Below, one piece after another: positions 33,174-43,851 of a stretch of DNA of 46,554 nt. Location: positions 1 through 46,554 of the forward strand of contig JAAZAA010000007.1 of NCBI GenBank assembly GCA_012514535.1. The letters are read 5' to 3'. The notes below the pieces were generated by a model. That model was not told the origin of the DNA, did not search any database, and saw only the letters and a program-made list of their open reading frames with translations. Origin of the DNA: Myxococcales bacterium. Lineage in GTDB: Bacteria; Myxococcota_A; Polyangia; Polyangiales; Polyangiaceae. Every line of letters starts with the position of its first letter. The stretch's first letter is position 1. The position numbers and the translations under genes are program-made.

Positions 33174-33500
33174 ATGCGCACTCTTCTCCTGCTGTTGCTG
33201 ATCCTCACGATCGTTTTCTGGTGGTGGGGCTTGAAGCGCAGCAATCAGCTCTTCGTCGTGAAGATCCGGGAGGGACGCGTCGCGTTCTCCCGAGGTCGCA
33301 TCCCGGCCGAGCTGCTGGCGGACATCGCGGACATCGTGGCGCGCGCGGGTGTCACCCGGGCGGAGATCCGCGGGGTGGTGAGCGACGGCGCGCCGCGCCT
33401 GCTGTTCCAGGGCGAGATGAGCCCAGGGGTACAGCAACAGCTCCGCAACGTGGTGGGCACGTTCTCCACCACGCAGATCCGTCAGGGCAAACAGCGCTGA
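33174..33500 (+). CDS. DUF3634-family membrane protein
   Basis: 108 aa. One N-terminal transmembrane helix (LLLLLLILTIVFWWWGL) followed by a cytoplasmic or periplasmic domain (LFVVKIREGRVAFSRGRIPAELLADI ... ISTTQ-like end) that I recall as DUF3634. Function unknown. It follows the biotin-carboxylase-like gene closely and precedes fliO; a GC palindrome 110 nt after its stop may end the transcript. Confidence 0.65.
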   Translation: MRTLLLLLLILTIVFWWWGLKRSNQLFVVKIREGRVAFSRGRIPAELLADIADIVARAGVTRAEIRGVVSDGAPRLLFQGEMSPGVQQQLRNVVGTFSTTQIRQGKQR

Positions 33501-33713: not shown

Positions 33714-34232
33714 ATGAGCTCGCTGGTGACCTACGTGGTGCAGGTGTCATCGACCCTGCTGGTCTTCGGTGTCATCGCCGCCGCGCTCATCCACTTCGGG
33801 CGCCGATCGGGTCGGCGCCCTGCGGGCCCCCTGGAGCTGCTGGACCGCCTGCACCTCGGGGGCCGACGGGTGGTCTATCTGGTGCGCGCAGGGGAGCGCG
33901 TGCTCGTCGTAGGAGGGAGCGAAGGAGGGCTCACGCGGCTGGGTGAACTCGACGCCAGCGCGCTGCCCCGCACCACGCCGCGGCGGTCCCTGGGCGCACG
34001 CCGAGAGCCCGCATCACGGGAGCCTGCGTCACGAGAGCCCGTATCACGGGAGCCTGCGTCACGAGAGCCCACCGGTGCACTCCGCGAGCCCGGTGACGCG
34101 CTCCAAAGGTCCAGGGGCGCCGGCGAGGTGCCCAGCGCCAGCCAGGAGCCCCAGGGCGCCAGCCCCGCGACAGGGCCCGGGCCTGGGAGCTGGCCACGGA
34201 GCGGGGCCGCAGGAGGAACTCCGAGTCGCTGA
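33714..34232 (+). CDS. fliO: FliO-like export-apparatus assembly protein
   Basis: 172 aa. An N-terminal membrane helix (residues about 5-28) is followed by a short FliO domain (GPLELLDRLHLGGRRVVYLVRAGERVLVVGG). The rest (about 85-172) is hydrophilic and disordered, with a pentapeptide repeat (REPAS-type, residues 97-120). FliO is a scaffold that helps assemble the FliP/SctR pore of flagellar export systems. The next gene, 9 nt downstream, encodes that pore protein, which supports the call despite weak conservation. The ribosome site GGAGGG is rather far from the ATG. Confidence 0.7.
   Translation: MSSLVTYVVQVSSTLLVFGVIAAALIHFGRRSGRRPAGPLELLDRLHLGGRRVVYLVRAGERVLVVGGSEGGLTRLGELDASALPRTTPRRSLGARREPASREPASREPVSREPASREPTGALREPGDALQRSRGAGEVPSASQEPQGASPATGPGPGSWPRSGAAGGTPSR
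34002..34073. repeat. Alternating 15-mers (30-bp repeat) in the fliO-like gene
   Basis: CGAGAGCCCGCATCA and CGGGAGCCTGCGTCA alternate for nearly five 15-bp units, each encoding REPAS or REPVS. The alternation shows that a 30-bp pair, rather than the 15-mer, was duplicated last. Confidence 0.85.
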
Positions 34233-34241
34233 GGGGGCGCC

Positions 34242-34889
34242 GTGCAGAACACCGACCTCGTCCTCGTGCTGGCAGCCCTCGGGCTGGTGCCGCTGGTCTT
34301 CATGGGCCTGACCGCCTTCGTGAAGATCTCGACGGTGCTGTTCATCACCCGCAGCGCCATCGGCATGCCCGCCGTGCCCGCGAACCTGGTGGTGACGGTG
34401 CTGGCCGGCGCCTTGACCGTCGTCGCCATGATGCCCGTCGGGCAGCTCATCCACGGACGGCTGACCCCGCTGCTCGAGCAGGTCGAAGAGCGACCGCTGG
34501 GCGAGCTCGCCAGCGAGGCCCTGGACCGGCTGCGGGAGCCGCTGCGCGATTTCTATCGCGCCAACGCCGCCCCCGGAGAGATCGAGCGCTTCGCCCGGCT
34601 GCAGGAGGAGCAGTCCGCGCCCGGGACCGAGGTGGACCACGGCGCATTCACGGTGGTGATCCCCGCGTTCCTGGTCACGGAGCTGCTCGAGGCCTTCGCC
34701 CTCGGCTTCGCCATCTTCCTGCCGTTCCTGGTGATCGATCTGATCGTCGCCAACGTGCTCGTCGCCCTCGGTGTCCAGGCGATGAGCCCGACGCAGGTCG
34801 CCCTCCCCTTCAAGCTGCTGCTGTTCGTGGCCGTGGACGGCTGGGGCCTCCTGGCCCGCTCCCTCGCGAGCGGCTACGTCCCGGGCTGA
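34242..34889 (+). CDS. sctR: Type III export-apparatus pore protein SctR/FliP
   Basis: 215 aa from a GTG start, the SctR length and without the cleavable signal peptide of many FliP. Signature stretches: LTAFVKISTVLFITRSAIG, PANLVVTVLAGALTV, VVIPAFLVTELLEAF, GFAIFLPFLVIDLIVANVLVALG and SPTQVALPFKLLLFVAVDGW. Four or five hydrophobic segments. SctR/FliP forms the pentameric core of the export gate with SctS/FliQ and SctT/FliR. Those genes do not follow here: a strong terminator comes next. FliO-type partner immediately upstream. Confidence 0.88.
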   Translation: MQNTDLVLVLAALGLVPLVFMGLTAFVKISTVLFITRSAIGMPAVPANLVVTVLAGALTVVAMMPVGQLIHGRLTPLLEQVEERPLGELASEALDRLREPLRDFYRANAAPGEIERFARLQEEQSAPGTEVDHGAFTVVIPAFLVTELLEAFALGFAIFLPFLVIDLIVANVLVALGVQAMSPTQVALPFKLLLFVAVDGWGLLARSLASGYVPG

Positions 34890-34972: not shown

Positions 34973-35013
34973 CCGCCGCTCGGCCCCTCACTCACTCGGG
35001 AGCCGAGCGGCGG
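34973..35013. terminator. Bidirectional terminator between sctR and lipoprotein gene
   Basis: CCGCCGCTCGGC / GCCGAGCGGCGG is a perfect 12-bp inverted repeat with a 17-nt loop, midway between two convergent genes. Confidence 0.6.
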
Positions 35014-35073: not shown

Positions 35074-35595
35074 TCAGAACCGCACCACGTGGTCGACGCT
35101 CATCGCGAGCTGCTCGGCGTCGGAGCCCGTGGTCACCGCACGCACCCGCTCGAGCACCTGGCGCCCCGTCGCCGCGTCCTCCGCGGTGACGTCCACGAGG
35201 TACCCGTTCTGGGCGGCGGACACGCTGACCCGCACCCCGGGGATCGCAAGCGGATCGCTGCTCTGCTGGCTCGAGGCGGCGTGCTGGGCCACCTGGCAGC
35301 TGGCGGCGCGGTGCACGTACTCCTGCGTCACACCTTCCCGGGCGGGCACGAACACGCGCGCGCCGGTGGTTTGCTGTCGGGGCGCCCTGCCGATGGGACG
35401 CTGCTCCTTGCGCGCCTCGACGAAGGACACGCCCTCCCAGGCGAACAGGCTCACGTCCCGGGCCTCGGTGGGCAAGCCTGCGCAGGCCCGATCGGGATCT
35501 CCCGCGCGCGCGCTCTCGGCCTTCGGGGTGGCCGCCGAGCACCCGAGAGCGAGGAGGAGGGCGGGAACGGCGAGGGCGAGCTTGCTAGTATACAT
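35074..35595 (-). CDS. Lipoprotein of unknown function
   Basis: 173 aa from the ATG at 35595, which has GGAG 6 nt upstream; an ATG four codons earlier is possible. A signal peptide (SKLALAVPALLLALGC) ends in a clear lipobox. The mature part has four further Cys or so, a Gln/Ser-rich middle (ASSQQSSDP) and an alternating end (GYLVDVTAEDAATGRQVLERVRAV). No family recognised. It is divergent from the response regulator gene. Confidence 0.7.
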   Translation of the reverse strand: MYTSKLALAVPALLLALGCSAATPKAESARAGDPDRACAGLPTEARDVSLFAWEGVSFVEARKEQRPIGRAPRQQTTGARVFVPAREGVTQEYVHRAASCQVAQHAASSQQSSDPLAIPGVRVSVSAAQNGYLVDVTAEDAATGRQVLERVRAVTTGSDAEQLAMSVDHVVRF

Positions 35596-39085: not shown

Positions 39086-40207
39086 ATGTCTACCGACGTC
39101 ATGATTCAAGCCAGCGACCTGTCGAAGCGTTTCGGACACGTGCGAGCGCTCGACAAGGTCAGCTTCCAAGTGAAAAAAGGCGAGGTCGTCGGATTTCTCG
39201 GCCCCAACGGGGCGGGCAAGTCCACGGCCATGCGGATCCTGACGTGCTTCCTGTCGCCCAGCGCGGGCTCGGCGACGGTGCACGGCTACGACGTATTCGA
39301 CGATCCGCTCGCCGTGCGGCGCTCCATCGGCTACCTGCCCCAGCGCGCGCCCCTCTACACGGACATGTCCGTCATCGACTATCTCCGCTTCACCTCGGAG
39401 ATCCGCGGACTGTCCCCCGCGACGTTCAAGAAGCGCCTCGGCACCGTGATCGAGGTGTGCGGACTGGCCCAGGTGATGACGAAGGACATCGGCACCTTGT
39501 CCCACGGCTACCGCCAGCGCGTGGGCCTGGGGCAGGCGCTCATTCACGACCCGCCGATCCTCATCCTCGACGAACCGACGGCGGATCTCGATCCCAACGA
39601 GAAGGCGGAGGTCATCCGCTACATCCAGGAGATCGGCCGCGACCGGACGGTGCTGCTGTCCACGCACAACCTCTCGGAGGTGGAGCAGGCCTGCGCCCGC
39701 GCGATCATCATCAGCAAGGGCAAGATCGTCGCCGACGGGCAGCTCGAGGAGATCCGCGCCAAGTCGGGCGGCATCCGCTACGTCGTCGCCGTCGACGGGC
39801 AGGGCGCCGAGGGCGACCAGGCGGCGCCGGGCTACTCGGATCTCGAGGAAGCGTTCGGGAAGCTGCCGGGCGTGAAGCACGTCCGTGAGCTCCGCACGGA
39901 GGAGAACGCCCGCCGCGTGGAGATCGCCGGGCCCCCCGACGCGGATCTGCGGGCGGAGATTTTCCGCCTCATGGTGGCGCGGGGTTGGACCCTGCTCGAG
40001 CTGCGCCGCGACGCGCAGAGCCTCGACGCCGTGTTCCGGGATCTCACGAAGGCCGACGAGGCCCTGGATCGTGGCCGAGAGTGGGACGAGGCCGTTGCCG
40101 CGGGTCCCGCCGACGAGGACGACGACGACGACGACGATAGCGAGGACGACGACACGGACGCGGCGAGCGCCGCCGAGCCCGTCGCCGAAGCCGCGGAGAA
40201 GAGGTGA
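39086..40207 (+). CDS. ABC transporter ATPase, GldA-like
   Basis: 373 aa. Walker A GPNGAGKS (39-46), signature LSHGYRQ (138-144, the LSxGYRQ form of GldA-like proteins), Walker B LILDEPTADLDP and the H-loop STHNLSEVE. After the ATPase core (about 235 aa) is a C-terminal extension that predicts an alpha/beta domain (about 240-340) and a run of Asp/Glu (EDDDDDDDSEDDD). First gene of a four-gene operon; its stop overlaps the next gene's possible GTG. With the permease and GldG-like protein it forms the ABC unit known in Bacteroidota for gliding; the role here is unknown. Confidence 0.9.
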   Translation: MSTDVMIQASDLSKRFGHVRALDKVSFQVKKGEVVGFLGPNGAGKSTAMRILTCFLSPSAGSATVHGYDVFDDPLAVRRSIGYLPQRAPLYTDMSVIDYLRFTSEIRGLSPATFKKRLGTVIEVCGLAQVMTKDIGTLSHGYRQRVGLGQALIHDPPILILDEPTADLDPNEKAEVIRYIQEIGRDRTVLLSTHNLSEVEQACARAIIISKGKIVADGQLEEIRAKSGGIRYVVAVDGQGAEGDQAAPGYSDLEEAFGKLPGVKHVRELRTEENARRVEIAGPPDADLRAEIFRLMVARGWTLLELRRDAQSLDAVFRDLTKADEALDRGREWDEAVAAGPADEDDDDDDDSEDDDTDAASAAEPVAEAAEKR

Positions 40208-40209
40208 CC

Positions 40210-40944
40210 ATGACGCCTACCTTGACGATCGCGAAGCGCGAGTTTCGCTCCTACTTCGATTCCCCCCTGGCCTACGTGGTCATCTGCCTGAGCTTCTTCG
40301 GCTTGGGGCTGTTCTTCTTCATGTATCGCGGCGGGTTCTGGCAGCTGGACCGCGCCACGATGCAGCCGCTGTTCGAGTTCGTGCCCGCCGGGCTGGCGAT
40401 GCTGGTCATCCCCGTCGTGACGATGCGGCTCATGGCGGAAGAGAAGCGCAGCGGCACCCTCGAGATGCTCATCACCTTGCCGGTGAAGGACAGCGACGTC
40501 GTGCTCGGCAAGTTCATCGGAGCTTTCGGCCTGGTGCTGACCATCGTGACCGCGACGCTCCTGTACCCGGTGCTCATGTTCAAGGCGCCCTGGAACCTGG
40601 GTCCGCTCGACATGGGGCCCGTGTGGAGCGGTTACCTCGGCCTGGTGCTCTACGCCGCCGCTGCGGTGTCCGTGGGACTCTTGATCAGCTCACTCACGGA
40701 CAGTCAGGCCGTCGCCTTCTTCGTGACCTTCTTCGTGCTGGGTGCGTTCTGGTTCTCCGGGAACGTCGCCGACCACCTCTCCGGCGCCAGCGCCAACGTG
40801 CTGCACTACGTGAGCTTCCAGTCACGAATGAGCGGCTTCATGCGCGGGCTCATCGACTCCCGCGACGTCGTGTTCTTCCTGTCCATCACGATCCTGGCGC
40901 TCGTGGTGGCTTTCCGGGCGCTCGAGCGCCGCAAGTGGGCGTGA
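40210..40944 (+). CDS. ABC-2-type permease, GldF-like
   Basis: 244 aa from the ATG at 40210 (a GTG at 40204 overlaps the upstream stop). Six hydrophobic segments. The signature TIAKREFRSYFDSPLAY and MRLMAEEKRSGTLEMLITLPV are typical of ABC-2 permeases paired with GldG-like proteins. It probably forms the membrane channel or mechanical element driven by the GldA-like ATPase. AGAGG lies at proper distance. 3 nt separate its stop from the next start. Confidence 0.9.
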   Translation: MTPTLTIAKREFRSYFDSPLAYVVICLSFFGLGLFFFMYRGGFWQLDRATMQPLFEFVPAGLAMLVIPVVTMRLMAEEKRSGTLEMLITLPVKDSDVVLGKFIGAFGLVLTIVTATLLYPVLMFKAPWNLGPLDMGPVWSGYLGLVLYAAAAVSVGLLISSLTDSQAVAFFVTFFVLGAFWFSGNVADHLSGASANVLHYVSFQSRMSGFMRGLIDSRDVVFFLSITILALVVAFRALERRKWA

Positions 40945-40947
40945 CCG

Positions 40948-42795
40948 ATGGCTAACCAGGACCGCAGGCGCAAAGTCGCCACCCAAACCGGGCTCTACCT
41001 CGTCGTCATCACGGCGATCGTAGTGGTCGCCAACATGCTGAGCGCGGGCGCGTACGTCCGCTCCGATCGGACCAAGACTCAGCGCTACACCCTCAGCGAA
41101 GGCTCCGGCCGGCTCGTGCGCACCCTGAACGAGCCCGTCCACGTCGAAGCCTACGTGAAGACGGGCCTCGCTCAGCTCGACGCCTTCGTCCGCGATCTCA
41201 CCGATCTGCTGAAGGAGTACGAGCGCGTCGGCGACGGGAAGTTCCAGTACACGATCATCGAGCCGGACACGGACGAGCTCCGTGAGCGGGCGCGCGAGGC
41301 GGGCCTCCAGGAGCAGCCCTTCGGCGAAGCCAGCGCGACCGGCGCCGACCAGGCCTCCGTGACGCAGGGCTTCATGGGCTTGGTGTTCAAGTACGGCAGC
41401 GAGAAGGGCGTGATCCCTGCCCTGCATCCCGCCCGCGGCGAGGGGCTCGAGTTCTGGATCACGAACAAGATCCGCGAGATCCGCGACAAGAACGACGACA
41501 TCAAGCACCGCATCGGCGTCGTCACGGGCAAGGACGAGCTCAAGCTCGACGACACCAACCTGGTGGCGCGGCAGGGAGGCGGCGGTGCGCCCAGCCTCAA
41601 GCAGATCATCCAGCAGGCGTTCCCCTTCTACACCATCGAAGAGGTGGACCTGAAGGAAGGCAACGAGCCCATCGACTCGGGCTTCGTCGGCCTCATCATC
41701 ACCCAGCCGCGCAAGGCCTACACGGAGAAGGAGCTGCGCCGCGTCGACGAGTTCCTCATGCTCGGCGGCAAGTCCCTGGCGGTGTTCGCTTCCGCCGTGA
41801 CGATGAAGCCGAACGATCCCTCCATGAAGGCGGAGCTCGACCTGCACGGCCTCGATCAGCTGCTCACCGGCTACGGCATCGAGATGAAGAAGGACGCCCT
41901 CTTCGATCACGGCGCCCAGTTCCGTCTCCCCGTGCTGACCCAGATGGGCGGCATGGGTTGGATCCGCCACCCCGGCATCGCCCACGTCGTGAACGACTCG
42001 CGGTTCGAGGAAGACGAGAAGCTCCTGGACACGAGCTTCCCCGGCTTCTTCCGGATGGACGAGATGATGGTGCCCTTCCCCTCGAGCCTCGTGCTCCATC
42101 GGGACAAGCAGCCCGAGGACGTGGAGCTCAAGGTCACCGCGCGCACGACGCCCGGCACCACCTCCACGACGGACGGCCCGGTCGACATGAGCCTGCGTGA
42201 GCAGTGGGAGACGAGGCCGCCCTTCGAGCAGCGCATCATCGGCGCGGTCGCCGAAGGCAAGCTGAAGAGCGCCTTCGCCGGAAAGCCCGACGAGTCGATC
42301 AAGCCCGCCGACAGGGCGCCCGAGCCCTCGCGAGTCTTCGTGCTCGCCTCGAGCCAGTTCCTGACCAACCCGTTCGCCTACGCGGGCAACGGCCCCGAGC
42401 TGGGCGGACAGTTCCAGATGATGGGCGGGATCGGTGGCGACCAGCAGCTCCAGATGATGGCGGGGCCCTACGCGCAGAAGTACCTCACCGCGACGATCCT
42501 CTCCCTGAAGAACACCCTGGACTGGATGAGCGGGGACACCGATCTGATCGCGGCGAGCGCCAAGATCCTCGGCGAGCCCAACCTGACCTACTCGAGCATC
42601 CGCAAGCCCGAGTTCAAGGCCGAGGACAGCGAAGAGGAGATGCGCCGCAAGGACGAGGAGTACCGCAAGAAGCGCAAGGAGCTGCAGCAGCAGGTCCAGT
42701 GGTCCCTCACCCTCGGGGTGCCCGTGCTCTTCGCGGGCTTCGGGGTGGTCCGCTGGCGTTCACGGGAATCCAAGCGCAACAGCAAGGTCGTTTGA
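40948..42795 (+). CDS. GldG-family ABC auxiliary membrane protein
   Basis: 615 aa. N-terminal helix (LYLVVITAIVVVANMLSAGA), a large periplasmic part with the family start RYTLSEGSGRLVRTLNEPVHVEAYVK, a middle GATase-like/ABC_transp_aux region (LIITQPRKAYTEKELRRVDEFLMLGGKSLAVF), and a C-terminal helix (WSLTLGVPVLFAGFGVV) after a charged stretch. Such proteins sit in the same membrane complex as the ATPase and permease. Third in the operon. Confidence 0.88.
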   Translation: MANQDRRRKVATQTGLYLVVITAIVVVANMLSAGAYVRSDRTKTQRYTLSEGSGRLVRTLNEPVHVEAYVKTGLAQLDAFVRDLTDLLKEYERVGDGKFQYTIIEPDTDELRERAREAGLQEQPFGEASATGADQASVTQGFMGLVFKYGSEKGVIPALHPARGEGLEFWITNKIREIRDKNDDIKHRIGVVTGKDELKLDDTNLVARQGGGGAPSLKQIIQQAFPFYTIEEVDLKEGNEPIDSGFVGLIITQPRKAYTEKELRRVDEFLMLGGKSLAVFASAVTMKPNDPSMKAELDLHGLDQLLTGYGIEMKKDALFDHGAQFRLPVLTQMGGMGWIRHPGIAHVVNDSRFEEDEKLLDTSFPGFFRMDEMMVPFPSSLVLHRDKQPEDVELKVTARTTPGTTSTTDGPVDMSLREQWETRPPFEQRIIGAVAEGKLKSAFAGKPDESIKPADRAPEPSRVFVLASSQFLTNPFAYAGNGPELGGQFQMMGGIGGDQQLQMMAGPYAQKYLTATILSLKNTLDWMSGDTDLIAASAKILGEPNLTYSSIRKPEFKAEDSEEEMRRKDEEYRKKRKELQQQVQWSLTLGVPVLFAGFGVVRWRSRESKRNSKVV

Positions 42796-42807
42796 GGGAG
42801 GTTTGCC

Positions 42808-43851
42808 ATGGCAATGACCGCAGACAAGAAGCTCTACCTCTCGCTCGCCGTGCTCGCGGTGCTGGGCGGCGCGCTGTACTACCAGAACCAGAGCGCCGCC
42901 GCGGATCGCAAGGCGCACTCCTACGAGGGCATGACGAACCTGCCCTCCCTCAGCATCACCGAGGAGGACACCAAGGCGCTGACGCGCATCGTGATCGAGC
43001 AGCCCGCCAAGGAAGCCAAGGACGGCGAAGAGGCCAAGGCGACCAAGCACGTCCTCGTGAAGGAGGGCGACGAGTGGCGCCTGGAGGAGCCGCTGAAGGC
43101 GCGGGGCAACCAGGCCAACGTGGAGAGCCTGCTCAAGAACCTCGCGGGCATGAAGGTGAAGGAGCGGCTCTCGAGCGGCGCCGACGCTCAGGCGGCCTTC
43201 GCTCAGTACGACCTCACGGACGACAAGGCCGTGCACGCCACCTTCTTCGCCGGCGATGAGAAGAAGTACGAATTCTGGTTCGGCAAGGGCGGCGGGCGCG
43301 GGCAGACCGCGCGCTGGGACGGCGCCGACGGCGTGTTCGTCGTCGACGGCTACTCGAGCTTCCTCTACACCCGCGACACGAAGGGCTGGCGCGACCTGTC
43401 GATCTTCAAGTTCGAGCAGGACGACGTCGTCGCCGTGACCATCGAGAACGAGCACGGCTCGTACCAGTTCGACAAGGACGGGGACGAGTGGTCGGCGAAG
43501 TTCAAGAAGGCCAAGGCGCCCGTGGCGGCCAAGCTCAAGGACTTCGAGCAGAGCAAGATCGATGACATGCTCCGCGCCTACAAGTCCCTCAACGCGAGCG
43601 GCTTCGGCGACGACAAGAAGCCCGCCGAGGTAGGTCTCGACGAGCCCCTGGCCACGGTGCTGATCCGCCTCGACGACGGCGCGCAGCGCAAGCTGATCTT
43701 CGGCTCCAACGCAGAGGGCTCGAGCCGCTGGGCGCAGGTCCCGGAGAAGGAGCAGATCTACACGGTCAGCTCCTGGGCCGCAGACTGGGCCTTCGCGGAG
43801 GAGTCCAAGTTCCAGAAGGCGAAGGACGCGGACGACGATCCGCATCCCTGA
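42808..43851 (+). CDS. DUF4340-domain membrane-anchored protein
   Basis: 347 aa, ATG preceded by GGGAGG. One N-terminal helix (LYLSLAVLAVLGGALYY), then repeated DUF4340-type beta modules (VLVKEGDEWRLEEPLKARGNQANVESLLKNL and YQFDKDGDEWSAKFKK) in a Lys/Asp/Glu-rich protein. It is expected in the periplasm. DUF4340 genes commonly close operons encoding GldA/F/G-like transporters, supporting one complex. A strong terminator follows. Confidence 0.85.
   Translation: MAMTADKKLYLSLAVLAVLGGALYYQNQSAAADRKAHSYEGMTNLPSLSITEEDTKALTRIVIEQPAKEAKDGEEAKATKHVLVKEGDEWRLEEPLKARGNQANVESLLKNLAGMKVKERLSSGADAQAAFAQYDLTDDKAVHATFFAGDEKKYEFWFGKGGGRGQTARWDGADGVFVVDGYSSFLYTRDTKGWRDLSIFKFEQDDVVAVTIENEHGSYQFDKDGDEWSAKFKKAKAPVAAKLKDFEQSKIDDMLRAYKSLNASGFGDDKKPAEVGLDEPLATVLIRLDDGAQRKLIFGSNAEGSSRWAQVPEKEQIYTVSSWAADWAFAEESKFQKAKDADDDPHP

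Follow-up and report, generated by a model that had tools for sequence, protein, structure and literature searches.

Why should the gene for the pore subunit of a type III export gate stand beside a fliO gene and no other gene of the gate? The question is raised by a locus on a 46,554-nucleotide contig of a Myxococcales bacterium (family Polyangiaceae, order Polyangiales). We call this whole stretch of DNA the window. In it, fliO and sctR adjoin and run in the same direction as a two-gene unit (Table 1). Based on sequence comparisons, the pair is very probably one piece of a single dispersed non-flagellar type III export system of the Myxo kind found in the Polyangiales.

Table 1. Features of the FliO-SctR locus in the window and single export genes on other contigs of the same genome
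Feature	Location	Strand	Description
FliO-like membrane protein	33714..34232	+	172 aa; Pfam PF04347 40.9 bits (cut-off 22), residues 29-89
Tandem repeat inside fliO	34002..34070	+	30 bp, 2.3 copies, 97% match; codes for SREP-rich tail
SctR, pore subunit of non-flagellar type III export gate	34242..34889	+	GTG start; PF00813 174.7 bits
GC-rich stem-loop	34973..35013		arms 34973-34987 / 34999-35013, 15 nt, 93% complementary; no T tract
SctS	contig C8		single match in genome
SctV	contig C8, ~22 kb from SctS		single match in genome
SctT	contig C82		24.5 bits, under Pfam cut-off 27.8
SctU	contig C239		Pfam 46.3 bits
SctN (FliI/SctN-type ATPase)	contig C106		TIGR01026 516 bits (curated cut-off 379.5); only one over cut-off
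SctJ	contig C96		PF01514 38.8 bits, over cut-off

The best NCBIfam model for SctR is that of the EscR/YscR/HrcR subfamily (NF009438, 195.2 bits against a cut-off of 179), while the yscR and fliP models score 173.7 and 152.3 bits, both below their own cut-offs. The C-terminal half of the fliO product is a low-complexity tail, and the protein probably assists in assembling the SctR ring. Profiles for SctS, SctT, SctU and SctV gave no match in the window. The first-pass annotation had described an isolated FliO-SctR unit not followed by these four genes, and the Pfam FliO and FliP and NCBIfam matches, together with the profile searches, bear it out on both counts. Its “strong 12-bp-stem terminator” behind sctR stands in part: the stem is real, although its arms are 15 nt long, and a 71-nt stretch of this region, between sctR and a convergent gene (35074-35595, minus strand), has a folding energy of -42.6 kcal/mol (z -3.9), matched by 1 of 200 shuffles. 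Because the run of T residues is absent, we do not call an intrinsic terminator with confidence. The stem-loop is not among the entries of our terminator scan, which is uninformative since that scan was limited to loops of 3-8 and the loop here is longer. The short N-terminus of SctR, taken in the annotation as a sign of a T3SS, proved not to be diagnostic: in alignment A1, which covers 20 of the 24 family relatives, 12 proteins start 27-41 residues earlier, with starts as picked by our crude gene caller, which also failed to call fliO itself and some of the target genes on other contigs. Upstream of fliO lies a gene for a DUF3634 protein (33174-33500, 59 bits), a domain matched at 4 of 24 family SctR loci. 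Downstream of the pair, at 39086-43851, are genes for an ABC ATPase, an ABC-2 permease, an ABC_transp_aux protein and a DUF4340 protein, which we take to be a GldA/F/G-like set.

The annotation had the pair “without the rest of the export gate” and proposed a genome search for SctS, SctT, SctU, SctV and the ATPase. Its statement is true for the locus and false for the genome. In the genome of the window (5.77 Mb in 442 contigs, 98.8% complete, 2.24% contamination), all five were found, and with them SctJ, one copy each, scattered over five other contigs (Table 1). A complete set with its own FliP, which would have spoken against the annotation's view, was looked for and not found: SctR of the window is the single FliP-family match in the genome. 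Apart from fliO and sctR, no two of the export genes found adjoin. SctT and SctJ are divergent and were nevertheless accepted because their neighbors are common to relatives and BLASTP ties them to relatives' copies (SctT to L184, E 2.7e-22; SctJ to L193, E 3.0e-18). No second, flagellar-type FliP, FlhA or FlhB was found in the genome, which has one gene each, and from their gene neighborhoods we take its SctU and SctV to be non-flagellar. A profile search for SctQ (PF01052, FliMN_C), which a divergent copy could escape, found none in the window's genome or in the relative G012, and gave a match in 51 of the 59 genomes searched, flagellar copies included. In G029 and G022, SctQ has genes resembling yggS and rarA in its vicinity. 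SctJ of the window's genome (L181:6731-7411) matches only positions 78-170 of the 179 in its profile, i.e., the second half. It has no cysteine in its first 75 residues, and four relatives' copies carry a cysteine after a signal-like stretch; judging from its sequence, this SctJ may no longer be a lipoprotein.

Do these scattered genes belong together? We scored non-flagellar SctR, SctV, SctU, SctT and SctJ in 37 family genomes, the window's included, with flagellar and non-flagellar copies sorted by hand from score, profile coverage and contig, and with a 28.8-bit SctJ fragment in G030 scored as present. All five genes occur in 20 genomes and none in 10; the remaining 7 have three or four, and no genome has one or two. 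Among 20,000 column shuffles, which ignore shared ancestry, the number of genomes with none never reached 10 (maximum 3). Gene neighborhoods are shared as well: SctU has an M48 peptidase on one side and a PspA-family gene on the other in the window's genome, G022 and G029, SctV lies near a presumably PP2C-like gene in the window's genome, G029, G021 and G012, and the neighbors of SctT and SctJ in the window's genome match those of relatives. Directly upstream of SctV, a FIST-domain protein is encoded (L007:5514-6800), and in G029 a protein (L084:6136-7296) has the same position before SctV. SctJ is followed in G029 by an ABC ATPase gene (L192:7412-8143, by Pfam) and in G022 by a similar one, with permease-like genes further on; we assume that these genes are MlaE-like.

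A third line of evidence comes from rates, for which the percent identity between the window's genome and two relatives was set against the mutual identity of those relatives. The values are 55-57% versus 77% for SctR, 44-45 versus 65 for SctV, 34-37 versus 56 for SctU, 35-36 versus 54 for SctJ and 59-62 versus 69 for SctN, while SctT shows almost no excess (39-41 versus 43). Several neighboring genes are scarcely faster in the window's genome: M48 (60-64 versus 66), a dihydrolipoamide-dehydrogenase-like gene (68-71 versus 69), the PP2C-like gene (58-63 versus 57), a third SctV neighbor (48-59 versus 45), DnaJ-like genes (54-62 versus 53, one being a short call) and the gene after SctT (53-59 versus 60). 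Others are also faster, namely PspA (55-58 versus 70), the gene before SctT (46 versus 54) and the gene before SctJ (52-53 versus 62). The contrast with the neighbors is thus not uniform, but clear for SctR, SctV, SctU and SctJ. Co-occurrence, synteny and shared rate shifts tie the scattered genes into one system.

These data also bear on the suggestion of a pore recruited elsewhere, according to which FliO-SctR would have been taken up for a job unrelated to type III export, e.g., with the nearby ABC transporter genes. FliO-SctR does stand alone at its locus, and each gene of the downstream ABC/DUF4340 block has matches at 8-10 of 24 family SctR loci. Yet this block went unseen at more than half of the fetched family loci, some of them short, the other gate genes are present in the genome and co-occur with SctR, most of them shift rate with it, and the class of genomes with one or two of the five genes is empty. 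We therefore consider such a recruitment very unlikely, and the suggestion is not supported.

Could the dispersal itself be an artefact of assembly or binning? The genome is a fragmented draft with measurable contamination, as given above. On the other hand, the export genes have intact, unrelated neighbors, common to relatives where compared, and two relatives with single-contig chromosomes are equally dispersed. In G021 (12.24 Mb), SctR lies at 1.07, SctT at 1.22, SctU at 4.24, SctV at 4.50, SctJ at 4.76, SctN at 8.14 and SctQ at 11.10 Mb; in G048 (10.33 Mb), the order is SctU 1.96, SctJ 5.48, SctT 5.75, SctV 5.80, SctR 7.98, SctQ 9.10 and SctN 9.78 Mb. The seven core genes of these chromosomes are 50 kb to megabases apart, so that an artefact is the least probable of the explanations weighed here, and hardly credible. 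SctS adjoins SctT in G048 and, judged from position and length, seemingly also in G041 and G055; the two are apart in the window's genome.

The same arrangement extends across the order. FliP-family matches from the 59 genomes searched, one of them the window's, were split into flagellar and non-flagellar types. The non-flagellar SctR occurs in 41 relatives, of which 24 belong to the family and 17 to the rest of the order; this count leaves aside FliP matches that were partial (G054) or weak (G047 and G052, 47-49 bits). SctR loci of 3 to 17 kb were obtained from 40 of the 41 relatives, one per genome; G044 was seen only as a 3.6-kb locus. At none of these 40 Polyangiales loci did the SctS, SctT, SctU or SctV profiles match. 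The SctT profile, iterated on six-frame reading frames, also caught SctU, which leaves this result unaffected, and SctS could be scored in relatives only if the fetched locus contained it. In the Myxococcaceae-type clade, by comparison, SctS, SctT, SctU and SctV are all present at 7 of 9 SctR loci; the other two are short (6.1 and 8.0 kb) and have SctS alone or SctS, SctT and SctU. FliO neighbors SctR, in the same orientation, at all 24 family loci and at 7 of 16 loci from the rest of the order, where the profile may miss divergent copies. A “dispersed, reduced export system”, the other possibility raised in the annotation, is thus supported by gate genes elsewhere in the genome and by the same dispersal across the order.

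A phylogeny of SctR, which the annotation had also proposed, was built from 100 of the 153 loci with a match, 12 flagellar loci being sampled. Flagellar loci form one side of a branch and the non-flagellar rows a clade (support 100, starred), inside which the SctR of the window groups with G008 and G010 (99, starred). Its branch is long (1.0 versus a median of 0.25) and its placement uncertain. SctR proteins of the Myxococcaceae type lie with it among the Myxococcota of the tree (branch support 92, not starred). A clustered SctR locus in a record titled Comamonas sp. KCTC 72670 (L119) falls among Myxococcaceae; this record is perhaps mislabelled. The flagellar gate (FliOPQR-FlhAB) resembles the system in having FliO beside a FliP-family gene and in the protein families involved. 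It differs in that SctR lies outside the flagellar clade and in that flagellar-type copies are lacking from the window's genome. In G001 and G002, two genomes of the window's genus, FliP and FlhB are of the flagellar type and non-flagellar copies are absent, the reverse of the window's genome; in G002, no SctV/FlhA match whatever was found. With SctR outside flagellar FliP and only flagellar-type copies in these congeners, a flagellar remnant was rejected.

An unusual reduction concerns SctU. In type III systems, the transmembrane part of SctU/FlhB is integral to the gate, and Asn-Pro cleavage in the NPTH site is required for substrate switching (PMC7064499). SctU of the window's genome has 232 residues and ends in the linker past the last transmembrane helix, before the NPTH domain. 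The gene 3′ of sctU is on the opposite strand and ends ∼35 bases further, which leaves no space for the missing domain. As the protein ends before its self-cleaving domain, a cleavage-driven change of cargo class would not be possible. Among 30 non-flagellar SctU proteins, 24 from the family and 6 from the rest of the order, the cleavage site reads NPTH in 16, NPTR in 2 and NPEH in 2. Seven lack N-P at the site (G008, G021, G026, G036, G038, G048 and G051), and three lack the whole domain (G000, which is the window's genome, G041 and G055); these three, from two families, end before the cleavage site and retain the linker. Parsimony on a poorly supported tree gives four changes for loss of the N-P site (bootstrap 3-5). 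To judge from these sequences, the site was probably lost independently several times, and we say no more than probably since the well-supported (starred) branches require just one change. The SctU branch of the window's genome is very long (3.15 versus 0.68). An AlphaFold model of the short SctU has a mean pLDDT of 70 and a pTM of 0.47; Foldseek with this model returned nothing at E ≤ 0.001, with FlhB (6s3l_K) 34th at E 9.6 and with the highest query TM-score (0.39) among the matches listed. The identity of SctU therefore comes from the Pfam score, the alignment and synteny, and not from the structure search.

Is the apparatus still in use in this species? The SctR, SctS, SctT, SctV, SctN and SctJ reading frames are open in the window's genome. 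Open frames are weak evidence of use, because neutral drift often leaves the SctR frame open: in a neutral simulation, it stayed open in 345-817 of 2,000 runs (17-41%), depending on the assumed divergence. Drift as an explanation of the open SctR frame alone was not rejected by this simulation. SctR keeps 64 of the 70 columns that are invariant in 21 slower relatives, three faster family rows being set aside, at an overall identity of ∼57%; random change at 57% identity would keep ∼40 of 70 (p ∼2e-10, binomial).

The opposing explanation is that the system is decaying in this species, its genes being leftovers heading to loss and the short SctU a broken gene. As the genes evolve fast in the window's genome, decay in progress stays a live rival. 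Consistent with it, 10 of the 37 family genomes are without all five scored genes, no SctT, SctU or SctQ was matched in the relative G012, whose listed completeness is 100%, SctQ gave no match in the window's genome either, its SctJ matches the second half of the profile only, and the SctR and SctU branches are long. Against it speak the open frames, the retained invariant columns of SctR and the SctU proteins of three genomes, representing two families, that retain the linker and stop ahead of the cleavage site. We consider decay possible, but rather doubtful; on balance, these sequence data suggest that the apparatus may well still work.

How does the system compare with known ones? The Myxo group was described from clustered loci of Cystobacterineae that have neither secretin nor needle subunit; scattered systems were noted in Chlamydiales and a few others (PMC3459982). 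In Myxococcus xanthus, a needleless T3SS* is encoded in one large gene cluster and, with a Tad-like pilus, is needed for prey lysis (PMC12075869). The system of the window's genome shares with it the non-flagellar gate proteins SctR, SctS, SctT, SctU and SctV, the SctN ATPase, the small inner ring protein SctJ and FliO. This likeness is known here from the gate, ATPase and ring genes and the SctR tree, “needleless” being a feature of Myxococcus. It differs from it in that the gate genes are scattered, as opposed to the clustered Myxococcaceae-type loci, and in that SctU lacks the autocleavage domain. Since no two export genes are adjacent besides fliO and sctR, we file it as a variant and not as a clustered system: it is a dispersed variant of the Myxo non-flagellar T3SS, reduced further in this species. 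The chlamydial T3SS is likewise non-flagellar with genes at several places, but belongs to another group of organisms and is spread over four or more loci, of which three contain core genes (PMC3459982), whereas in the window's genome nearly every core gene found is alone.

The annotation had counted FliO as a flagellar trait and dispersed systems as reported in parts of Myxococcota. FliO is present in Myxococcota non-flagellar systems (PMC12403147) and is therefore not purely a flagellar trait in this phylum. As for dispersal, none was found reported: the parts of the literature at hand describe clustered needleless systems (PMC3459982; PMC12075869) and the presence of FliO (PMC12403147). T3SS annotations are reported in Polyangia (PMC11509652). 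In a search with Myxococcus proteins, the Myxococcaceae bin had half or more of the T3SS homologs, and its authors suggest that contact-dependent predatory functions may be missing from other taxa or that these have different mechanisms (PMC11821767). In the open-licence literature, to the extent of the text accessible there, we found no description of gene-by-gene dispersal in Polyangiales or of loss of the SctU cleavage domain in this order.

The sequences show the genes, their dispersal along the chromosome, singly or in pairs, in the order Polyangiales, their co-occurrence and the truncation of SctU; the assembly, function and cargo of the apparatus we infer by homology. FliO would aid oligomerization of SctR, which with SctS and SctT would form the inner-membrane gate; SctU would wrap this gate, a SctV ring beneath would gather cargo, and the SctN ATPase and a SctJ ring would complete the base. 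The apparatus would then pass a single class of protein through the inner membrane, either into the periplasm or on to a partner machine, in line with a proposal for Myxococcus. A further step, which we put forward tentatively as somewhat short of probable, is that this is a switchless minimal type III exporter: a working one-class exporter from unlinked genes that discarded its cleavage domain several times. With no needle or hook to build, a change of cargo class would be needless, and the autocleaving domain of SctU, perhaps also the C-ring, could be dropped; scattering of the genes would follow once assembly no longer proceeded in coordinated stages.

Searches that rely on gene clusters, as well as BLAST against Myxococcus, will probably overlook the dispersed system of the Polyangiales. 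Sandaracinus amylolyticus, a described species with a complete genome, is apparently among the relatives. The Polyangiales provide a natural series: some members have a full gate with NPTH, some have lost the cleavage site, others the domain, and in others again the system is absent. With this series, one can ask which functions of the gate export itself requires and which serve only the construction of a needle or hook.
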